Shown here: one piece after another, positions 14,716 through 26,366 of the stretch
Numbering within the stretch: the first letter of the stretch is position 1
How the letters are laid out: each line of letters opens with the position of its first letter
Source: Candidatus Bathyarchaeota archaeon B26-2
GTDB taxonomy: Archaea > Thermoproteota > Bathyarchaeia > Bathyarchaeales > B26-1
NCBI GenBank assembly: GCA_001593935.1
Contig: LUCE01000019.1
Location: forward strand, 1 to 35,490
Direction of reading: 5' to 3'
DNA length: 35,490 nt
The notes under the pieces: generated by a model
Seen by the model: the letters and a program-made list of their open reading frames with translations, nothing else
Told to the model about the DNA's origin: nothing
Databases searched by the model: none
Position numbers and translations under genes: made by a program

Positions 14716-17460
14716 TTGACCAGTACGTATGAGGGTTCAACGTTCATCCGCAGATACTGGGTCTGGCTACTACTAGCCCCGATCATCTTGATCATCGCCT
14801 TTCAGGGGCTTTACACATGGCTCGACTGGTCGATAATGCAGACCTTATACGAGAGGAAGGCTGGCCTAGACTGGTTCAGTATAACCTTCTACCGCAACTA
14901 CACCTTCATACTCAGCGCCATACTTGCACTTTTAACCATAAATCCCCTCTACGGGCGCAGCGACCTCTACGAGATATGGGAAACTGTTAGATGGCTAAGC
15001 AGAATCGAGCAAGGCTCGACATCGACAGAGATTCCCGTCTTCTCACCGAAGACGAGAAAAATCTTCTGGGCCGTCTGGCAAATATTGAAGTGGCTCTTCG
15101 CCTTCACGATAATCTCCTCGATCAACGGTATACCCTTCTTAGGGAGGGTTACACCGATCTTCATCATGGCTCTGGACGGGATTGGGGAGTGGAGTCTAGT
15201 CCCCAGGATCTTCGTCCTCCCGATCGTTCCAGCCTCCAGCTCCGAACTGATCGCCTTGATGCCAACCATGGAGGTCCAGTACCGCTTGATCTACCTCGTC
15301 TCGACAGCGGTACTAGCAGTAATCGCGGCTAGAATGTGCCTCAAGCTCGTCAAGCACTTCATCAGGGAAACCCAGAGTGTCTGGGTTCGGGATTTATTCT
15401 TGATCTTGACATGCGTTATGGCGGCTTTGATCTTGGGAGCCCCCTACTGGACCATGGATATAACGACCCCCTTTGACTACACAATCTGTCTCGTCCTTCT
15501 CGCGAGTTTTCTCTTTGGGACGCTCTTCTCTCACTTCGTCGGCTTCGGAGGGGGCTTACCCTTCGCCAAGAGGAAGAGAACGGTCATCCTATCCTTCACC
15601 TTAGCCCTTATAGCGGTACTCATAATCAACGCCGCCATCGTTGCGGGTTTCCGCCTAAACTGGAACAACAACTGGTTGGAGTACGAGTGGAAGCCCTTGA
15701 CCGAGAGGCAGATAGCCGTAACCCGTTGGGCCGCCGGGATCGAGCGTATACGGAGGCTTCCCCTCTCAGCCCTTCCAAACGGGAACGTAACCGAGACCTT
15801 GATGAAGGTTAGGCAGTGGGATTACCAAGCCGCTTACACAAGAATGATCAACCGGATCGGCTCAAACTGGATGAACCTAGCCGACTCGGATATCATATAC
15901 GTAAACGGCCGGGAGTACTGGGTTGCCCCCACGACGATCCTGTATCCTAGCACAGACTGGATAAGCGTTCACTTGATCTATACGCATACCTCTCGCATAA
16001 TCGTCATCGACAGCCACAGCGGAGAGTACGTAAACATAACGGATGTCTTCGGGGTCTCGGAGGAGCCTCCCATCTACTATGGGGAGGGCTTCGGAAACCC
16101 GGTCTACGTCAATGTGAGAGGGTTCAACGAGGTTGAGAACATCTCGTATCCGGGTGAACCGGACTACGTCCTTTCAGGTTGGAGAAGAACCCTCTGGTTC
16201 CTTCTTCAGGGACAGCTCGGTTTCGCCTTCTCTCCGCCGCAAGACGAGATCGAGATGCTCTACAACAGAGACGTGCTCAAACGGGTTGGAGACATCTTGA
16301 TCTACGGATTGAAGGTCGATCCGGACGCTTACCTCGTGAGCGACGGAGAGCGCGTATATTACGCTGTCCAAGTCTACATCGACTATCCTATGCATTCAGG
16401 CTTCGCGGCTAGCAATTACCTCCGCTACTTCGCGGTCGTTCTCGTCGACGTTGAGGACGGAACCATGAAGGGTTACGTCGTGGGAGAGCCGGACGGGTTC
16501 CTCGTAGACTTCTACACCCGGTACTACTCAGAATGGAAGCCCATAACGGACCCGAGCGCCGAATGGCTTAGGCCTCAGCTCCGCTACCCGGAGGCTCTAC
16601 TCGGGAAACCCGGTCATCCAGGCCAGCTGGACGTAGACTTTGTTTTCCACGTGGACGAACCCTTCGCTTGGAGGTCCGGAAGCGAGTTTTACGAGAGACC
16701 CCTCGGAACCGAGGTTCTCTACGTCCTCTTCGTCGACGAGAACCGAACACGCTTCGTCGGAATCCAGATAGTTGAGTATAAGATGTCTGAGAGCAAAAAC
16801 TTGGCGGCCGTATACTTGGCGTATGGAGGAGAACGCCTAGGCGAGATCGTTCTCTACGAGGCTCCTCCTGGAGCTCAGCTCCTAGGGCCAACATCAGCGG
16901 TTGAGTCGCTCAAGGCCAACCAAGAAGTCCAGGTCAAGCTCAACCTTTACGGGTACCCCGAGACCTCAAGCCTAGGCAACATCCTCCTCTACCCGATAGG
17001 AGGCCGGCTCTACTACTTCATACCGTTATATGTGAGAGGAGCGGTGATGGCTACCATGCCGCAGATAGGTATCGTCGATGCGTCTTCGGGTTCCTTGGTC
17101 GCGATGGGCTCAGACGCAGCCGAAGCCTACTACAACCTTATAGGAGCCCCATCTGAGACAGGGGCCCAGAACCGCCTCGAGAAGGTTAAAGCCCTATTCA
17201 CGGAGGCTGGATACAACTTGGTGAAGGTCTGGGCTATACGTCCCGACGTCGAGATACTTGAGGGAAACCTCACGTACCTAAGTGAGAGTCAGTGGGACGA
17301 GGTTGAGTCCGCCTTGAAGGCCTTCTTGGAGAATCATCCTCCGGAGAACGGTAAGGTCTTCATGTGGGACAGAGGGGAGGGAGTCGTGAACTTTGGAGTC
17401 TTGACCCTAGAGGATGACGGCGTCAAGTACTTATACTTCGTCACGGTTCGGTATGGGTGA
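14716..17460 (+). CDS. UPF0182-like (COG1615) large membrane protein, divergent
   Basis: Several N-terminal TM helices, then a large domain with DIIYVNGREYWVAPTTI, DWISVHLIYTHTSRIIVIDSHSGEYVNITDVFGVSEEPPIYYGEGFGNPVYVNVRGFNEVENISYPGEPDYVLSG, resembling UPF0182 motifs. Confidence 0.65.
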   Translation: MTSTYEGSTFIRRYWVWLLLAPIILIIAFQGLYTWLDWSIMQTLYERKAGLDWFSITFYRNYTFILSAILALLTINPLYGRSDLYEIWETVRWLSRIEQGSTSTEIPVFSPKTRKIFWAVWQILKWLFAFTIISSINGIPFLGRVTPIFIMALDGIGEWSLVPRIFVLPIVPASSSELIALMPTMEVQYRLIYLVSTAVLAVIAARMCLKLVKHFIRETQSVWVRDLFLILTCVMAALILGAPYWTMDITTPFDYTICLVLLASFLFGTLFSHFVGFGGGLPFAKRKRTVILSFTLALIAVLIINAAIVAGFRLNWNNNWLEYEWKPLTERQIAVTRWAAGIERIRRLPLSALPNGNVTETLMKVRQWDYQAAYTRMINRIGSNWMNLADSDIIYVNGREYWVAPTTILYPSTDWISVHLIYTHTSRIIVIDSHSGEYVNITDVFGVSEEPPIYYGEGFGNPVYVNVRGFNEVENISYPGEPDYVLSGWRRTLWFLLQGQLGFAFSPPQDEIEMLYNRDVLKRVGDILIYGLKVDPDAYLVSDGERVYYAVQVYIDYPMHSGFAASNYLRYFAVVLVDVEDGTMKGYVVGEPDGFLVDFYTRYYSEWKPITDPSAEWLRPQLRYPEALLGKPGHPGQLDVDFVFHVDEPFAWRSGSEFYERPLGTEVLYVLFVDENRTRFVGIQIVEYKMSESKNLAAVYLAYGGERLGEIVLYEAPPGAQLLGPTSAVESLKANQEVQVKLNLYGYPETSSLGNILLYPIGGRLYYFIPLYVRGAVMATMPQIGIVDASSGSLVAMGSDAAEAYYNLIGAPSETGAQNRLEKVKALFTEAGYNLVKVWAIRPDVEILEGNLTYLSESQWDEVESALKAFLENHPPENGKVFMWDRGEGVVNFGVLTLEDDGVKYLYFVTVRYG

Positions 17461-17774
17461 TCTTCATGAAGAGAGAGGAGCGGGAGGTCCTAATAGAAGA
17501 GTTCGATATCTGGTTAAAGACTAGGTTCGCTGAGAAGTTGAGGATCGGAGGCCACAGGTTTGAGAAGACTCTGAGCGGAGAGATCATGATCGACGGTGGA
17601 GCCTTCACAGCGGAGGAGGCCCGTCTGCTCTTTCAGATGTTGACCTCCCGGAACCCCTTAAACAGGATCAACGCCGCGATAATAATATGGGACAGGAACG
17701 GGACCCTAGTCAAGGTTGTGGTAGCCTTAGCCATACTTGCTCTGATCCTAGTTTACTTGTGGGTTAGGAGATAG
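17457..17774 (+). CDS. Small tail-anchored membrane protein, unknown function
   Basis: 105 aa, overlaps the preceding stop by 4 nt; single C-terminal TM VVVALAILALILVYLWVRR. ATG at 17466 also possible. Confidence 0.65.
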   Translation: MIFMKREEREVLIEEFDIWLKTRFAEKLRIGGHRFEKTLSGEIMIDGGAFTAEEARLLFQMLTSRNPLNRINAAIIIWDRNGTLVKVVVALAILALILVYLWVRR

Positions 17775-17828
17775 AAAGGCGTAAATCCTTGAATCCACAT
17801 GTATTAGCTTGGCTGTGGGTGGTCCGGT

Positions 17829-18563
17829 TTGGAGATTCTAGTCCAAGAAGATGTCTCTAAACCTCTCTCGAGGAGAGTCTTCGCCGAGTTCTCGACTGAG
17901 GTTCTGAGCCTCGAGGATGTAATTCTAGCCCTCAGCGGAATCATAGATGACGAGGCTGAAGGGTATCATAGGCTGCCGTTTCTAAGCGCCAAGAGCGAAG
18001 GGTTGGAGCAGCTAGACATATACACCTCGATCCGGAGGAGGAGAACCGACAGAGCCTACGTCGTCTCAAACGGGAGGAACACCATCTATATGCTCGACTA
18101 CGTGGTCAAGGCGAGGAGGATCTACCACGACCCTGTTGTGTGCATAATTGGCCCTGACGCCGAGAGGATAGCCGAGAGAACCGTTAGAAACCTAAAGAGG
18201 ATGCTCCTACCGAAGATATGCGACATGAGGATCAACGATGACGCCTTGACGGACTTCGCGAAGATCACAGGGACGAAGAAGACGGAGGTCCTCAAGGAGG
18301 TCTCCAAGGTCCTAGAGGAGGCTGAAGTCGCCCTCAAGATGAGGCTCCTAGACGAGGCAGGGAAAGAACAGGTAGACGGCCGACAAGCCTCAGTAAAGAA
18401 AGGAAGCGGCAGGCTCTCAAGGGAGCTCCTAGAAGACCTAAAGAGTAGAAGGAAGCCTCCCCTCCCGATAGAGCCTATAGACCTCCAAGACCTCGCCTCC
18501 TACGGGATCGTAATCCTCTTCGTCATCTTGATGCTCCTAGCAGCTCTCTCGAGGCTGCTCTAA
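17829..18563 (+). CDS. Tail-anchored cytosolic protein, unknown function
   Basis: TTG start, 244 aa, mixed alpha/beta N-terminus and C-terminal TM DLASYGIVILFVILMLLAALSRLL. Confidence 0.65.
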   Translation: MEILVQEDVSKPLSRRVFAEFSTEVLSLEDVILALSGIIDDEAEGYHRLPFLSAKSEGLEQLDIYTSIRRRRTDRAYVVSNGRNTIYMLDYVVKARRIYHDPVVCIIGPDAERIAERTVRNLKRMLLPKICDMRINDDALTDFAKITGTKKTEVLKEVSKVLEEAEVALKMRLLDEAGKEQVDGRQASVKKGSGRLSRELLEDLKSRRKPPLPIEPIDLQDLASYGIVILFVILMLLAALSRLL

Positions 18564-18586
18564 ATGGAGCTGCCGGAGGCTCATGC

Positions 18587-19366
18587 TTGATTATAGATGC
18601 TCACGCCCACATCTGGTACCCGCCGTCCTTCTCGCTGGAGGAGTTCCTGAAGTGGGCGGCTAGGCTTGGGATAGATAGGCTCTGCGTCTCGAAGCTGCCT
18701 TCACTCCGTCCATCCTCGATCTCCAGTTTCTCCAAGGCGAATAGAGACGTTGCGGAGGCTATGAAGGCCCATCCTGAGGCTATTCTAGGGTACTGTTACG
18801 TTAACCCGGCCTACGGGGAGAGGGCGGTGGAGGAGTTCCGCAGGTGCCTAGAAGAGTACGGGATGCTCGGCCTCAAGTTATATACCGACTGCCACTGTCT
18901 GGACCCGAGGGTGTCACCGCTAATAGAGTTAGCCGTCGGGTTCAACGCTCCGATACTGATACATACAGCCCACATGCAGCGTAGATACATAGAGGAGGCC
19001 CTGCCCTTCCACAGGAACCCGCCGACGGTCAGCAACTCGGAGGAGGTCGCGGAGCTGGCCCGCAGGCACCCGAAGGCCACCATCATAATGGCCCATATAG
19101 GCGGTGGAGGAGACTGGGAGTGGGCTGTAAAGGCCGCTAGGAATGCCAGCAACCTTATGGTCGACACGAGTGGGTCGGGCGTAGACTTGGGGATGATCGA
19201 GCTGGCGGTCAGGGAGGTCGGCGCCGAACGGGTCGTCTTCGGAACCGACAACTGCCTCTCATCGGGCATCGGGAAGATACGTGGAGCCGAACTCAGCGAG
19301 AGGGACCGCAGGCTCATCCTAGGCGAGAATATGCTCAGGATAATCGAGAGGAGAGGCCTACCATGA
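18587..19366 (+). CDS. Amidohydrolase-superfamily metal-dependent hydrolase
   Basis: DAHAHIW, LGLKLYTDC, ILIHTAHMQ, IIMAHIGGGGDWEWA, RVVFGTDNCL: metal-ligand motifs intact. Confidence 0.85.
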   Translation: MIIDAHAHIWYPPSFSLEEFLKWAARLGIDRLCVSKLPSLRPSSISSFSKANRDVAEAMKAHPEAILGYCYVNPAYGERAVEEFRRCLEEYGMLGLKLYTDCHCLDPRVSPLIELAVGFNAPILIHTAHMQRRYIEEALPFHRNPPTVSNSEEVAELARRHPKATIIMAHIGGGGDWEWAVKAARNASNLMVDTSGSGVDLGMIELAVREVGAERVVFGTDNCLSSGIGKIRGAELSERDRRLILGENMLRIIERRGLP

Positions 19367-20139
19367 TTATAGACGTGAACGCCTACTTGGGGATGTGGCC
19401 CTTCAGGAGGCTCCGGTACAACACTCCGGAAGGTCTACTACGGCTTATGGATAGGGCGAAGATAAGTTCGGCGGTCGTCTCCTCATCGAGTGTCCTCTAC
19501 AGAAACTCTCACGAGGGAAACCTCGAGCTCGCAGAGGAGATTGAGCCGTATAGGGATAGGTTGATTCCCTTCGCGGTCATAAACCCGAGCTACGCCGGGT
19601 GGAGGGAAGACCTAAAAGAGTGCGTCGAGAGCCTCGGCATGAAGGGGCTGAGGCTTCATCCCAATTACCACGACTACAGGTTGACCGAAGACTGCGCATC
19701 TGACCTCATCAAGGAGGCTGTCGACCGGGGTCTGCCGGTCTCGATAGCGCTCCGCATGGAGGACGAGAGGCAGCATCACTGGCTGGTTAGGGTTCCACCC
19801 GTCTCCACATACGACTTGGCGGAAGCCATAAACCGTTTCCCAGAGGCGACCTTCATCTTGACGTATATACATTACCGCGAAGCCGAACCAATCCTCAACG
19901 CTTGTCCGGAGAGCGAGAACTTCTACATCGAGTTGACTTCTCACTACCTCTTCGGAGCCTACCCGAATCAGCTCCAGTCCCTCGTCGAGAAGATGGGAGC
20001 AGAGAGAATTCTCTTCGGGTCGGGTATGCCGCTTAAGTATCCGGAGGCAGCCCTGATGAAGATCGAGTGCCTCGACATAAGCGAAGAGGAAAAGGAGAAG
20101 ATTCTCCACAAGAATGCTGAGAGGATACTAGGCCTCTAA
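19363..20139 (+). CDS. Amidohydrolase-like paralogue with degenerate metal site
   Basis: MIIDVNAYLGMWPF..., GLRLHPNYHDY, FILTYIHYREAEPI, RILFGSGMPLKYPEAAL; overlaps the upstream gene by 4 nt (ATGA). Confidence 0.78.
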   Translation: MIIDVNAYLGMWPFRRLRYNTPEGLLRLMDRAKISSAVVSSSSVLYRNSHEGNLELAEEIEPYRDRLIPFAVINPSYAGWREDLKECVESLGMKGLRLHPNYHDYRLTEDCASDLIKEAVDRGLPVSIALRMEDERQHHWLVRVPPVSTYDLAEAINRFPEATFILTYIHYREAEPILNACPESENFYIELTSHYLFGAYPNQLQSLVEKMGAERILFGSGMPLKYPEAALMKIECLDISEEEKEKILHKNAERILGL

Positions 20140-20154
20140 ACGACATCCAGCCGG

Positions 20155-21120
20155 TTACAAGCCTCCATTCAGTACAGCCTCCAAACCTCTATTCAACTCT
20201 TTGATCAAGGCTTGGAAGTTCTCCTTCGGAACTCTTGCACCTGCAGCTTGAGGGTGTCCACCCCCGCTCCCCCCGAGCTTCGGCGTTATCCTCCTAAGGA
20301 TAACGTTCAAGTCTATCCGCTCCTCGGCCGTGCGTAGGCTCATATCGATCATCCCTTTACGCGTCTCCCCTGCAACACCGACTAGGGTTCCGGACAAGGC
20401 CCTCGCGTAGATAGCCGTCTTCCCCAGAGAGAACGGAAAATCCAGGACATAGGACACGCGGCCTTCAACCTCCACTCTTTCCTCAATCTCTTGGATGGCT
20501 TCCTCCTCCCTCCGGGTCTGTTGAATCGCGAGCTCCACCAACCTATCGTCTGAGCTCGGAGGCTCCCCAGCGGCCAGCTCCGAGACCACAGACCTCTTGA
20601 GGTTGTACTCCCTCTTCTGGTCTGAGAGAGCTTGGACGAGTATACCAGTGTCGAGGTAGATCGTCCTTTTGTCCCACATCCTCAGGAGACCCCTTATAGT
20701 AGGAGTGTTATCCGCGTAGTCTGAAATGGCTCCGTAGATTGCCGCTCTGCTCTGAAGAGCATCGATCCTATCCTTGAAATAGGAGTAGACGATCTCCGAG
20801 GCTGAAGCCCCTAACCTATGGTGGACTATGCCCGGTATCTCTTCAGCTTGAACCGAGTCTGGAAGAGGGTGATGATCAAAGTAGTATAGGAGACCGGCCT
20901 CCTCTATCCTCGAGAAGCGTTCGATGAGCCCCTCTAGGTGCGTCTCAGAGAGGGCTATATCGCAGATTATAACCGTGTCCCTATCCCTCGCTTGGTTGAG
21001 GTCGCCGAGGAGACCGAAAGGATGGGTGAAAAAGACATGGGCGTCGGGGTTAGCGGCCAAGGCCAAAGCTCCAGCACAGACACCGTCTCCATCCCCATGG
21101 GCAAAGATCCACACCGCCAT
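20155..21120 (-). CDS. DHH-family phosphoesterase (RecJ-like)
   Basis: FAHGDGDGVCAGALAL, VIICDIALSE, YYFDHHPLPD, AISDYADNTP, GGSGGGHPQAAGARVP. Confidence 0.88.
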   Translation of the reverse strand: MAVWIFAHGDGDGVCAGALALAANPDAHVFFTHPFGLLGDLNQARDRDTVIICDIALSETHLEGLIERFSRIEEAGLLYYFDHHPLPDSVQAEEIPGIVHHRLGASASEIVYSYFKDRIDALQSRAAIYGAISDYADNTPTIRGLLRMWDKRTIYLDTGILVQALSDQKREYNLKRSVVSELAAGEPPSSDDRLVELAIQQTRREEEAIQEIEERVEVEGRVSYVLDFPFSLGKTAIYARALSGTLVGVAGETRKGMIDMSLRTAEERIDLNVILRRITPKLGGSGGGHPQAAGARVPKENFQALIKELNRGLEAVLNGGL

Positions 21121-21241
21121 GCTGCTTCTCCCCTTTCAAATCCTCTAAAGGCCGGGATGAAAGGCTGTTAATTCTCGAATTGTGCAAAAATAATAAAAGG
21201 TTTGAGGTGGGTATTGGGGCTGAACGGGTGGGGGGTTGCTG

Positions 21242-22300
21242 ATGATGAGTAAGGAGGCATCACCTGAAGGTCCGGAGATCAAGGTTGTCATATATGGAGT
21301 AGGCGAGATAGGTTGCCGCGTCGCTAGACTCCTCTTGAAGAAGAGAGGCATCCGAATAGTTGGAGCGATAGATAGGTCACCGCAGAAGGTTGGGAGGGAC
21401 ATCGCCGAGGTCCTAGGGGTGGAGAATCCTCTAGGAGTAACGGTCTCGAGAGACGCCGCTAAGGTTCTCTCAGAGACGAAGCCAGACATCGTCGTCCACA
21501 CGACGACGTCCTTCCTTAGAGACGCCTACCCTCAAGTTCTCACAGCCGTAGAGCATGGGGCGAATGTCGTCTCGACGACCGAAGAGCTCTCATACCCATA
21601 TATAGCCGATCCAGAACTCGCCGAGAGTCTGGACCGAGCAGCCAAACTGCACGGAGTAACCGTTCTAGGAACGGGCATAAACCCCGGCTTCCTAATGGAC
21701 ACTTTAGCGATAACCCTGACCGCCGTCTGCCAAGAGATTGATAAAATCAAAGTTAAGAGGGTTATGAACGCCGCAACCCGCAGAGTCCCATTCCAGAAGA
21801 AGATCGGGGCGGGCCTAACTGTGGATGAGTTCACCGAGAAGATCCGGACAGGCGTCATAACGGGACACGTGGGCCTAGAACAGTCCATAGCGATGATAGC
21901 GGCGGCGCTGGGCTGGAACCTCGATAAGGTGGAGGTCGAATTGGTTGAACCCGTAGTGGCCACAAAACACGTCGAGAGCGAAGTCATAAAGGTTGAGCCG
22001 GGCCGAGTAGCCGGGCTACGGCAACGAGCACACGGCGTGATGGACGGAAAGAAGGTGATCACCCTAGACTTCCAAGCCTACATAGGAGCCGAAGAGGAGT
22101 ACGACTCCGTGACGATAGAAGGAGTTCCGGAAGTCCACGAGAGGATAAGCCCATGCGTCCACGGAGACTTGGGAACCGTAGCGGTCGTCGTAAACATGAT
22201 CCCGAAGGTTATAGAAGCCCCTCCAGGCCTAAAGACTATGAAGGACCTACCCGTCCCATCGGCCACCCCAAGAGACATGAGAACCTACCTGAGCTGTTAA
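21242..22300 (+). CDS. DapB-like / 2,4-diaminopentanoate dehydrogenase-like oxidoreductase
   Basis: KVVIYGVGEIGCRVARLLLKKRGIRIVGAIDRSPQKVGRDIAEVLG, VVHTTTSFL, GANVVSTTEELSYP, GTGINPGFLMDTLAI. Confidence 0.72.
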   Translation: MMSKEASPEGPEIKVVIYGVGEIGCRVARLLLKKRGIRIVGAIDRSPQKVGRDIAEVLGVENPLGVTVSRDAAKVLSETKPDIVVHTTTSFLRDAYPQVLTAVEHGANVVSTTEELSYPYIADPELAESLDRAAKLHGVTVLGTGINPGFLMDTLAITLTAVCQEIDKIKVKRVMNAATRRVPFQKKIGAGLTVDEFTEKIRTGVITGHVGLEQSIAMIAAALGWNLDKVEVELVEPVVATKHVESEVIKVEPGRVAGLRQRAHGVMDGKKVITLDFQAYIGAEEEYDSVTIEGVPEVHERISPCVHGDLGTVAVVVNMIPKVIEAPPGLKTMKDLPVPSATPRDMRTYLSC

Positions 22301-23292
22301 AGCGGGGGCTTCGTGAGCTTCCTCTTCCAGCTAGGCTTCTTCATCCACCTAACGAAGGCACTGCTTGGAGGATCCTCCTCGAAGAGCTCCCGCCGCCTCG
22401 CCTCTAAGAGCTCCTCATCCCCGCCCATAAACTCGGCTGCTGTCAGAATTCTATGCCCAGCTCGGGACGCCGCCTCGAGAACGGGCTGAGCGAACCTCCT
22501 CCAATCCTTCTCTCGGAGAATATGATGATCTAGGATTGTTGTTGGAACCCTCTGAACTATCCTCTTCAGGTTCTCGGCCGCTGACTCCAACTCTCCACGG
22601 CTGATACTAAAGTCAACAAGATATAAGGGAGGCCCGCCCAAAAAGACGAGTTGAGGACTCTCCGCTAGTATGAGTTCACATGTCTCTCGGACGATGGGGC
22701 CTTGAACGTCCGATGTGAATAGGAATCTCTCCTCGCCGTACTTAACCGTCGTCATCAGGACCCAACCCAGATCGGAGCCTTCGGGCCCGTGGAAGACGGG
22801 CTTCGAGAAACTTATAGTTGTATCGCCGAACCTAAATGTTCTCCCGTCCGCGGCCTCAATCCTCTCGGCGTACTTTCCACTCGTCTGGGTGAAGATCCAG
22901 CCTCTCCTCCTCTGGCTGAAGTTCACGTTGGATCGATAACTCTTCGCGAGGACGAGTTTACCCTCGTAGATGGACTTCGCTATCTCCTCGGAACACCAGT
23001 TGTAGGCCCAGTCCGTGTATGAGGGCGTATGGTGGTCGAAGTGGTAGTGGCTGACCGTGACCACGTCGGCTCTCTCAGCGGACTCAACTATAAGCCTGCG
23101 AGACCTCTTAAGAGCCATGTACTCTTTAGGGTGAGGTGGGAACCCGAAGCGCCTCGGACCTAAGGAGACACCCGCGTCCAGAAGTATCCTAACGTCTGGG
23201 GTCTCGACGTAGGTGCACATCGACCTGACGCCGAGGCTCTCAAATGCGACAGGTCGAACCTCGATCTTCCTCAACGGGCTTTTCAGTTCCAT
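22297..23292 (-). CDS. UPF0282-family metallo-beta-lactamase-fold protein
   Basis: ILLDAGVSLGPRRFGFPPHPKEYMAL, VVTVSHYHFDHHTPSYTDW, FLFTSDVQGPI, TTILDHHILREKDWR. Stop codon shares TTAA with the convergent 21242-22300 gene. Confidence 0.87.
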   Translation of the reverse strand: MELKSPLRKIEVRPVAFESLGVRSMCTYVETPDVRILLDAGVSLGPRRFGFPPHPKEYMALKRSRRLIVESAERADVVTVSHYHFDHHTPSYTDWAYNWCSEEIAKSIYEGKLVLAKSYRSNVNFSQRRRGWIFTQTSGKYAERIEAADGRTFRFGDTTISFSKPVFHGPEGSDLGWVLMTTVKYGEERFLFTSDVQGPIVRETCELILAESPQLVFLGGPPLYLVDFSISRGELESAAENLKRIVQRVPTTILDHHILREKDWRRFAQPVLEAASRAGHRILTAAEFMGGDEELLEARRRELFEEDPPSSAFVRWMKKPSWKRKLTKPPL

Positions 23293-23521
23293 TCGCCATC
23301 GATCCGCTAACAGAGGCTCCAGTCTACCTCTATCACGTGAAGGCCTTAAGAGGTTAATCTCTTCCCTATAGAGAAGGCTTTCAAAGCCAACAGTTGGCGG
23401 TGACCCTGCGGATGTTCTTCCATATCTCGGTGACTCTTCTTCGCAGCCTTTTTAGAGCGTATGCGGATTCATAGCCCGTTCTTCACATCGTTTAGGAGGT
23501 TAACGAAGGATAGGAGACAAC

Positions 23522-25147
23522 TCAGAACTCCGGTCTAGGTTTCCCGAGTTTCCTGTCGAGGCAGGCCTTCACAAACCCATAGTACTCCGGTTCCGGCTTC
23601 CCAGGTCTACTCTTGAATTCTCCGTGGAACTGAGACGCAAAGAAGAAGTATTTCTCTGGTAGCTCGAATATCTCGATCCTCCTGTGGTCCGGGCTCATCC
23701 CTGAGAAGACGGCTCCATGCTCTTGGAGTATCTCCCAGTACTTGGGGTTAACCTCCCATCTGTGGCGGTGTCTCTCGTAGATTTCGGTTGAGCCGTAGAG
23801 TCTATGCGCTAAGGTTCCCTCCCGTATTATAACTTTGTGGGCTCCGAGGCGCATGGTCGCCCCTTTGTAGGTTATCTCCCTCTGTTCTGGCATAAGGTCT
23901 ATCACAGGATGGGCGGGCTCCTGCTCTATCTCTGTGCTGTTCGCACCTTTTAGGTTGCATACGTTGCGGGCGAACTCGACGATGGCTAACTGGAATCCGT
24001 AACATATCCCTAGGAACGGTATATCGTTCTCTCGGGCGAAGTTTATCGCCTTGATCTTACCTTCAGTTCCCCTAGGGCCGAAGCCATAAGGAACGAAGAT
24101 TCCGTCGTACTCTTTGAGCGTGTTTATCTTATCGGGATTCTCCTCGAACTCTTCGGCCTCGATGTAATCTATCGAGATTCGGGCTCCACACTCGGCGCCA
24201 CCGTGCCTCAGAGCCTCATTCATACTTACGTAACTGTCGGTTAGACCGGCGTACTTGCCGACTAGGGCTATCCTAACGGTGTATCTGGGGTTCTCAATCT
24301 TCTCGACGAACATCCTCCAATCTTCCCAGAGAGGCTTGCTGTGGGGGAGATTAAGCCTTCTACAGATGTATTCGCCCATGCCCTGCTCGTCCAAAATCAG
24401 GGGAACCCTATAGATGGAGGGTACAGTGTATGAGCAGAAGACTGCCTCTTCAGGTATTGTTCCGAAGAGCGCTATCTTCCGGATGACCTCCTCGGTGATC
24501 ATCTCCTTACACCTCGCGACTATTATGTCGGGTTGTATACCGATCCTTCTAAGCTCGTTGACGCTGTGTTGGAGAGGCTTCGTCTTCATCTCGCCGGTGA
24601 CCTCCAAGATGGGGACGAGAGCCACGTGGATGTAAAGTGTGTTATCGTAGCCCTCTTCTAGACGCATCTGTCTTATGGCCTCTAGGAAGGGTAGGCCCTC
24701 TATGTCCCCGACCGTTCCTCCACACTCCGTCAGGACTATGTCGACCCCAGACTTCTCAGATACGACGCGGATCCTACGTTTGATCTCGTTGGTTACGTGA
24801 GGGATTATCTGGACGCACCTACCCAGAAAGTCTCCCCGCCTCTCCCTGTCTATAACAGACTGATAGACCTGCCCCGTTGTGATGTTATTCTCCTTCGGCA
24901 AGTTTATGTTAAGAAACCTTTCGTACCACCCTAAGTCAAGGTCGGTCTCCCCTCCGTCCTCGGTCACGAATACCTCTCCATGGATATATGGGTTCATCGT
25001 CCCAGCGTCCACGTTCACGTACGGGTCGACCTTGATTGCTGTGACGTCGTATCCCCGAACCTGAAGCATCTTCCCAACAGAGGACGTAACTATGCCCTTA
25101 CCAACCGAACTCAATACTCCGCCTGTGATGAAGATGTACTTGACCAT
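23522..25147 (-). CDS. pyrG: CTP synthase
   Basis: [78 protein letters not shown]; glutaminase GICYGFQLA; full length. Confidence 0.98.
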
Positions 25148-25257
25148 GACCCTCAAACCTTCCCGAAACGATAAGGAGAATAAACGTCAACCCAAATAAA
25201 AATCCTTGTCACGGATGCTAATGCAACCTTGGATACTGTGGTCTCCAGCCTAGAAGC

Positions 25258-25270
25258 GAAAGATTTATCC
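25258..25270 (+). promoter_or_regulatory. BRE/TATA promoter for the phosphofructokinase locus
   Basis: gcgaaagatttatccc; predicted start site near 25290. Confidence 0.5.
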
Positions 25271-25344
25271 CTCGGAAACCTTAAGAGTTAGGGGGATTCA
25301 AGGCGGAGAACCGCCGAAGAATTGGATGGAAAAGGGGATTACAG

Positions 25345-26354
25345 ATGAGAATAGGAGTTCTCACGGGTGGAGGAGACGCTCCAGGGCTCAACGCGGCGAT
25401 CAGAGCTGTCTTCAAACGTTGTGAGAAGTACGGCTACGAGGTTGTCGGAATCCGCCGCGGCTGGGCTGGGATGCTTAACAAAGAGTGTTTCGAGCTCAAA
25501 CCCGAGGATGTTAAGGAGATCGTCGGTAAAGGCGGAACGATGCTGAAGACCTCGAGGACGAACCCCCTCAAGATTCCGAAGGGAATAGAGACCGTCTCGA
25601 AGAACTTCAAGGAGATGAGGCTCGACGCCCTCATAGCCATAGGTGGAGACGACACCCTAAGCGTTGCGAAGGCCCTAAGCGAGGCAGGGCTTAAGGTCGT
25701 AGGCGTACCGACGTTGCCAGAACCGACGCAACGATAGGCTTCGACACCGCTGTAAACATGGCTATGCGTGTCATCGAGAACCTCAAAGACACCGCTGAGT
25801 CCCATGAAAGGGTGTTCCTAGTAGAGATCATGGGGAGATACGCCGGGTGGATAGCGCTATACTCTGGAATAGCGGCAGGAGCAGACCTCATCCTGATCCC
25901 TGAGGAGCCCTTCAAGATAGAAGACGTTGTCAACTTCGTTAAGAAGAGGCTTGAGAAGGGTGAGAAGTCCACAGTCATCGTCGTAGCTGAAGGAGCCCTA
26001 ATCGCTGATTACAAAGGCCCGATAACGAAGGAAACGAAGGTAGACCAGTTCGGGCACGTCCGTCTAGGAGGAATAGGCGAGTTCCTGGCTAAAGAGATTT
26101 CAAAGGCGGTAGGGGTCGAGACGAGAGCCGTCGCTCCTGCGCACATAATCAGAGGGGGGCCTCCCACAGCCTTCGACAGGTTCATGGCGACTAGGTACGG
26201 CATAGCGGCTGTGGACCTGGTTAGAGAAGGAAAGTTCGGCATGATGGTTGCCTTGAGGTCGGGTAAGATCGTTGCGGTTCCTCTATCTGAAGCCTTAGCC
26301 GAGATGAAGAAGGTCAGTCCAGAACTCTACGAAGAGGCCAAGACCCTCTTCTAA
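25345..26354 (+). pseudogene. 6-phosphofructokinase (PPi-type signature), frameshifted and lacking the catalytic KTIDN(D) segment
   Basis: 25345-25737 encodes MRIGVLTGGGDAPGLNAAIRAVF...LIAIGGDDTLSVAKALSEAGLKVVGVP and then runs out of frame to a stop; the -1 frame continues (D)VARTDATIGFDTAVNMAMRVIENLKDTAESHERVFLVEIMGRYAGW..., which covers the ORF at 25758-26354. Junction at ~25710-25717. Confidence 0.85.
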
Positions 26355-26366
26355 CCTTCTCGAAGC

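Follow-up and report, generated by a model that had tools for sequence, protein, structure and literature searches.

A 16-nt deletion across the catalytic motif of the single PPi-type phosphofructokinase gene in the genome assembly of Candidatus Bathyarchaeota archaeon B26-2

Introduction

Phosphofructokinases (PFKs) can be sorted by short sequence motifs, GGDD marking the PPi-dependent type and GGDG the ATP-dependent type, and the PPi-dependent enzymes carry the signature PKTIDxD (PMC12203962). The general base of the reaction is Asp127 in the Escherichia coli enzyme (PMC12203962). Whether PPi-PFK serves as a gluconeogenic enzyme is a published open question. The closest described counterparts of the gene discussed here are the minimal-size archaeal and bacterial PPi-PFKs (TIGR02483, PFK_mixed), of the Thermoproteus tenax-like type, and the closest counterparts of its lesion are unitary pseudogenes that arise through short microhomology deletions.

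The window, that is, the whole stretch of 35,490 nt analysed here, corresponds to contig C61 (1-35490) of the B26-2 genome (G000; 1.89 Mb in 73 contigs, estimated completeness 99.8%, estimated contamination 3.2%). An initial annotation, made from the sequence alone, had proposed that a PPi-type PFK gene in this window lost its catalytic motif through a deletion of about 16 nt. Here, we compare this gene with its orthologs and place its loss of frame in the enzymatic context of the lineage.

Results

The N-terminal part of the gene (25345..25710, plus strand) encodes 122 aa (...GGDDTLSV...GLKVVGVP), and the C-terminal part (25713..26354, plus strand) encodes 213 aa and a stop codon in a shifted frame. 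The PF00365 match to the whole gene splits exactly at the junction between them (25710..25713, plus strand; CGA at the join) into two collinear segments, covering profile positions 1-122 and 128-277. As the initial annotation had read it, the first ORF (25345-25737, plus strand) runs out of frame after GLKVVGVP to a TAG at 25735-25737, and homology picks up again at 25713 (VARTDATIGFDTAVN...), one frame back. Instead of a single ORF of ~340 aa, the window thus contains ORFs of 130 and 198 aa, the second possibly starting at the ATG at 25758. Together, the two pieces provide full-length PF00365/TIGR02483 homology, and TIGR02483 is the best NCBIfam model for both halves, each of which falls below its curated cut-off when taken singly. 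The motif AIGGDDTLSV lies at the expected position and the comparison with orthologs agrees, which upholds the assignment to the PPi-dependent type. The window gene resembles the minimal-size TIGR02483 enzymes in its fold family (PF00365), its GGDDT donor motif and its size (~341 aa without insertions), but differs from them in having neither the PKTIDxD motif nor an intact frame. We did not find a second intact PPi-PFK copy elsewhere in the genome, where the gene is single-copy, and an Rfam search of the window gave no match.

Between CCG (25708-25710) and GTT (25713-25715), intact orthologs have 18 nt, encoding K-T-I-D-N-D, whereas the window has 2 nt (AC). Exactly 16 nt are therefore missing, namely five codons (K-T-I-D-N) plus the initial base of the D codon after them; the intact protein reads ...VVGVP-KTIDND-V..TDATIGFDTAVN... 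around this site. Both the deletion size and the identity of the lost motif had been correctly anticipated, and the repaired protein has the expected length (122 + 6 + 213 = 341 aa, compared with 342 aa in the congener G001). With these residues, the gene has lost the general base (the catalytic Asp) and the PPi-binding lysine of the PKTIDxD signature. Since the codons for both are missing, the two remaining frames cannot give an active enzyme, and no recoding, programmed frameshifting included, can restore it. We saw no homopolymer and no long repeat at the site, in keeping with the earlier view that this is not a homopolymer slip. The join reads CCGACG where the congener has CCCGAAGACCATCGACAACGATG; if one CGA copy is taken out of the congener sequence together with the 13 nt between the repeats, the window form results. 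In the window's own ancestor, the repeat bases GA are certain from the genetic code and the third base is present only if the Asn codon was AAC. By simple arithmetic, random deletions would show a 3-base repeat in ~5% of cases and a 2-base repeat in ~16%. The junction is thus consistent with slippage between short CGA direct repeats, a mechanism that these frequencies favour only weakly. The exact junction sequence had no match in viral contigs, and among the 11-mers at the junction we saw no recurrence within the window that would account for a repeat-driven misassembly.

Intact 342-aa orthologs, all with KTIDND, are present in the same genus (82% nt identity), in the same family and in a neighbouring family, and all PPi-PFK orthologs of the clade are single-chain proteins that have the motif. 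Members of the sister family consistently have KTIDYD, KTIDHD or KTIDFD in place of KTIDND (f9 with its close kin: L010-L020, L049-L058, L060-L062, L070), and the ATP-type paralogs read in these genomes keep TIDND. We do not regard this variation as an anomaly, as the published motif is PKTIDxD (PMC12203962).

In the window, the broken gene lies between an intact, divergent CTP synthase gene (pyrG, 23522..25156, minus strand) and an intact, convergent seryl-tRNA synthetase gene (serS, 26367..27653, minus strand), which is next downstream and lies 12 nt past the PFK stop. The order pyrG-PFK is common to B26-2 and the congener (PFK 82% nt identity), and all other 15 of the 15 genes compared in the synteny block shared by the two genomes (15085-31797) are open in the window. 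The congener thus has a syntenic intact ortholog and B26-2 has no intact copy, as expected of a unitary pseudogene. In the congener assembly, it is pyrG that is frameshifted, by the absence of 10 nt with AGA at the join (L115:9358; window equivalent 24607-24616). This deletion is probably an assembly error or a minority allele. The region downstream of PFK also varies: in the congener, a segment of ~1.1 kb (L115:11135-12305) with a gene of 279-297 aa separates PFK and serS, which are only 12 nt apart in B26-2 (26354-26367). G002, a genome of a different genus, has this additional gene as well. The intervening genes of the congener and G002 share ~95% nt and 98.6% protein identity, compared with mostly ~68-83% for the flanking PFK, a pattern that may reflect recent transfer or chimeric binning.

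The broken gene bears the marks of normal constraint. Both halves combined have a dN of 0.071 and a dS of 0.842 relative to the congener (dN/dS about 0.08). For the window gene, dN amounts to 0.131 to the next relative and 0.147 to the one after it, compared with 0.103 and 0.150 for the congener, so that neither half of a consistent pattern of excess emerges in the window gene across these two comparisons. Only 2 of the 152 columns invariant in 12 orthologs deviate, compared with 0 to 4 in other members, and there is no stop beyond the frame break. The two residues just past the junction have changed from S-E to A-R, a pair that none of the 12 orthologs has, although the column does vary. Neither dN/dS, nor dN distances, nor invariant columns give any sign of relaxed selection after the lesion, which bears out the initial impression of an otherwise conserved gene; dN/dS and column conservation rule out an older pseudogene. 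Because the rest of the gene is conserved, the break is either very recent or not in the organism, two situations in which the absence of relaxed selection is equally expected.

A search for another PFK, as the initial annotation had advised, revealed an intact ATP-type enzyme at C66:46979-47800, with GGDGT, PATIDND and a 327-codon open frame; an ADP-dependent PFK was not found in the genome. The ATP-type gene shares PF00365 and the organism with the window gene, but differs in its motifs and intact frame and is a separate paralog, not a copy. In most close relatives, we likewise read an ATP-type PFK with these motifs. As this enzyme is intact, F6P phosphorylation is covered in B26-2. The genome also encodes an intact family-I soluble pyrophosphatase. 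In contrast to almost all relatives, the congener included, in which membrane pyrophosphatase (mPPase) is full length, B26-2 retains mPPase only as a decayed C-terminal fragment at C55:19007-19105 (L104:1501-1599, L111:10791-10889; WTKGTALHETAVIGDTVGDPSKDTVG), surrounded by further homologous pieces in another frame, with stops. We found neither an intact mPPase nor a congener-type gene in this genome. The fragment may derive from a different paralog, as its identity is higher to another mPPase type (74%) than to the congener's (67%). Our search for enzymes of the FBPase step covered two families, PF01950 and PF00459. FBPase V (PF01950) was not found in B26-2, and the inositol-monophosphatase family (PF00459), present in 56 of the 61 compared genomes, was found neither in B26-2 nor in the congener. 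Judging from these two families, the lineage may depend on PPi-PFK as its one enzyme for the step from FBP to F6P.

Among the 16 genomes of the three nearest families (f1, f3 and f9), PPi-PFK occurs in 15, B26-2 with its broken gene included, and none of these has FBPase V. The remaining genome, G034 (family f9, 98% complete), is the only one that lacks PPi-PFK and the only one that has an archaeal FBPase V. This distribution suggests that PPi-PFK may run from FBP to F6P in the three families, with one informative genome and an exact probability of 1/16. A general exclusion between the two enzymes is not seen over all 61 genomes (19 have both and 13 neither), the pattern being confined to the nearest three families. 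Likewise, no general link between the absence of mPPase and that of PPi-PFK was seen in the order, as four of the five genomes without an mPPase match keep PPi-PFK. Many well-assembled relatives within the order do not have PPi-PFK, which indicates that its loss is tolerated. Other disrupted frames were encountered in this survey: in G022, an additional copy of the soluble pyrophosphatase gene is interrupted by four stop codons (G022:C13:30504-30905) and is apparently a pseudogene, and the FBPase V genes of G040 (C1:1689775-1690878) and G028 (C8:2360-3445) read through one in-frame TAA.

Discussion

The initial annotation left three options, a recent pseudogene, a strain variant or an assembly error, and the same three remain. 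We lean towards the first, namely that a single, very recent deletion of 16 nt, real and fixed, inactivated the only PPi-type PFK of this lineage. Replication slippage between the direct repeats CGA...CGA would probably have removed the 16 nt, and the ATP-type PFK would take over the phosphorylation of F6P in glycolysis. The loss would fit a lineage that is also without membrane pyrophosphatase and in which PPi would now be handled by the soluble pyrophosphatase. The deletion, exactly 16 nt in size, not at a homopolymer and with CGA at the join, speaks for a real event, as does the change of S-E to A-R just after the junction. The locus resembles unitary pseudogenes of the microhomology type in that a single small deletion at a short direct repeat shifts the frame, the body of the gene is otherwise conserved and a sister species has a syntenic intact ortholog; unlike them, it does not yet show secondary decay, and its lesion is known here from an assembly. 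Against a real loss stand the normal constraint on the gene, the possibility that PPi-PFK is the sole route from FBP to F6P, and the fact that loss of mPPase does not predict loss of PPi-PFK in the order.

The main competitor is an artefact of assembly or consensus, in which PPi-PFK would be intact in the organism and the 16 nt lost where, at low coverage, a read that was chimeric or from a minority set the consensus, or where a strain bubble was collapsed. We consider this a serious possibility, if not the one we would expect to hold. The normal constraint on the remainder of the gene would then need no further explanation, and the organism would have kept an enzyme whose loss, if no other FBPase is present, may be difficult. 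The congener offers a precedent: its pyrG is broken by a short deletion, although a cell can very probably not do without CTP synthase, so that deletions of this kind can stem from faulty assembly or from an allele of a minority. However, this precedent stems from a different assembly. That of B26-2 does not appear error-ridden around PFK, since the shared block has no further disrupted gene among the 15 compared, and the junction coincides neither with a homopolymer nor with a repeat of assembly k-mer size.

We regard it as improbable that the deletion is real but restricted to part of the population, with the consensus showing the broken allele. The recency of the break and the metagenomic character of the genome, with its 73 contigs and 3.2% estimated contamination, would agree with such a polymorphism, but no second copy of this gene occurs on another contig. 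The idea that the gene still works, be it as a split protein or through ribosomal bypass or frameshifting, has next to nothing in its favour: both halves are conserved and the ATG at 25758 opens the second, but the K-T-I-D-N codons are gone together with a base of the D that follows, and with them the general base, and the orthologs of the clade are all single-chain proteins with the motif.

If the gene was indeed inactivated by a recent and fixed deletion, one can ask whether the lineage is perhaps giving up a PPi-based saving of energy. In a wider and rather unlikely scenario, PPi-PFK would replace FBPase in the gluconeogenic step from FBP to F6P in the Bathyarchaeia families around B26-1, and B26-2 would be a natural knock-out that lost first mPPase and then PPi-PFK. 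We offer such an abandoned PPi economy only as a possibility, since there is one informative genome, no exclusion over the 61 genomes, and mPPase absence is not predictive.

The break in itself is an ordinary kind of gene event, and its metabolic context raises its interest a little. Beyond the initial annotation, our analysis adds this context, with the missing mPPase, FBPase V and inositol-phosphate phosphatase, and the precedent of a short deletion in the assembly of the congener. Should the deletion prove to be an artefact, it would counsel caution in inferring metabolic loss from single genes of MAGs. A clade that has PPi-PFK and no archaeal FBPase V, and in which one member carries a broken gene, would be a place to test PPi-PFK as a gluconeogenic enzyme.
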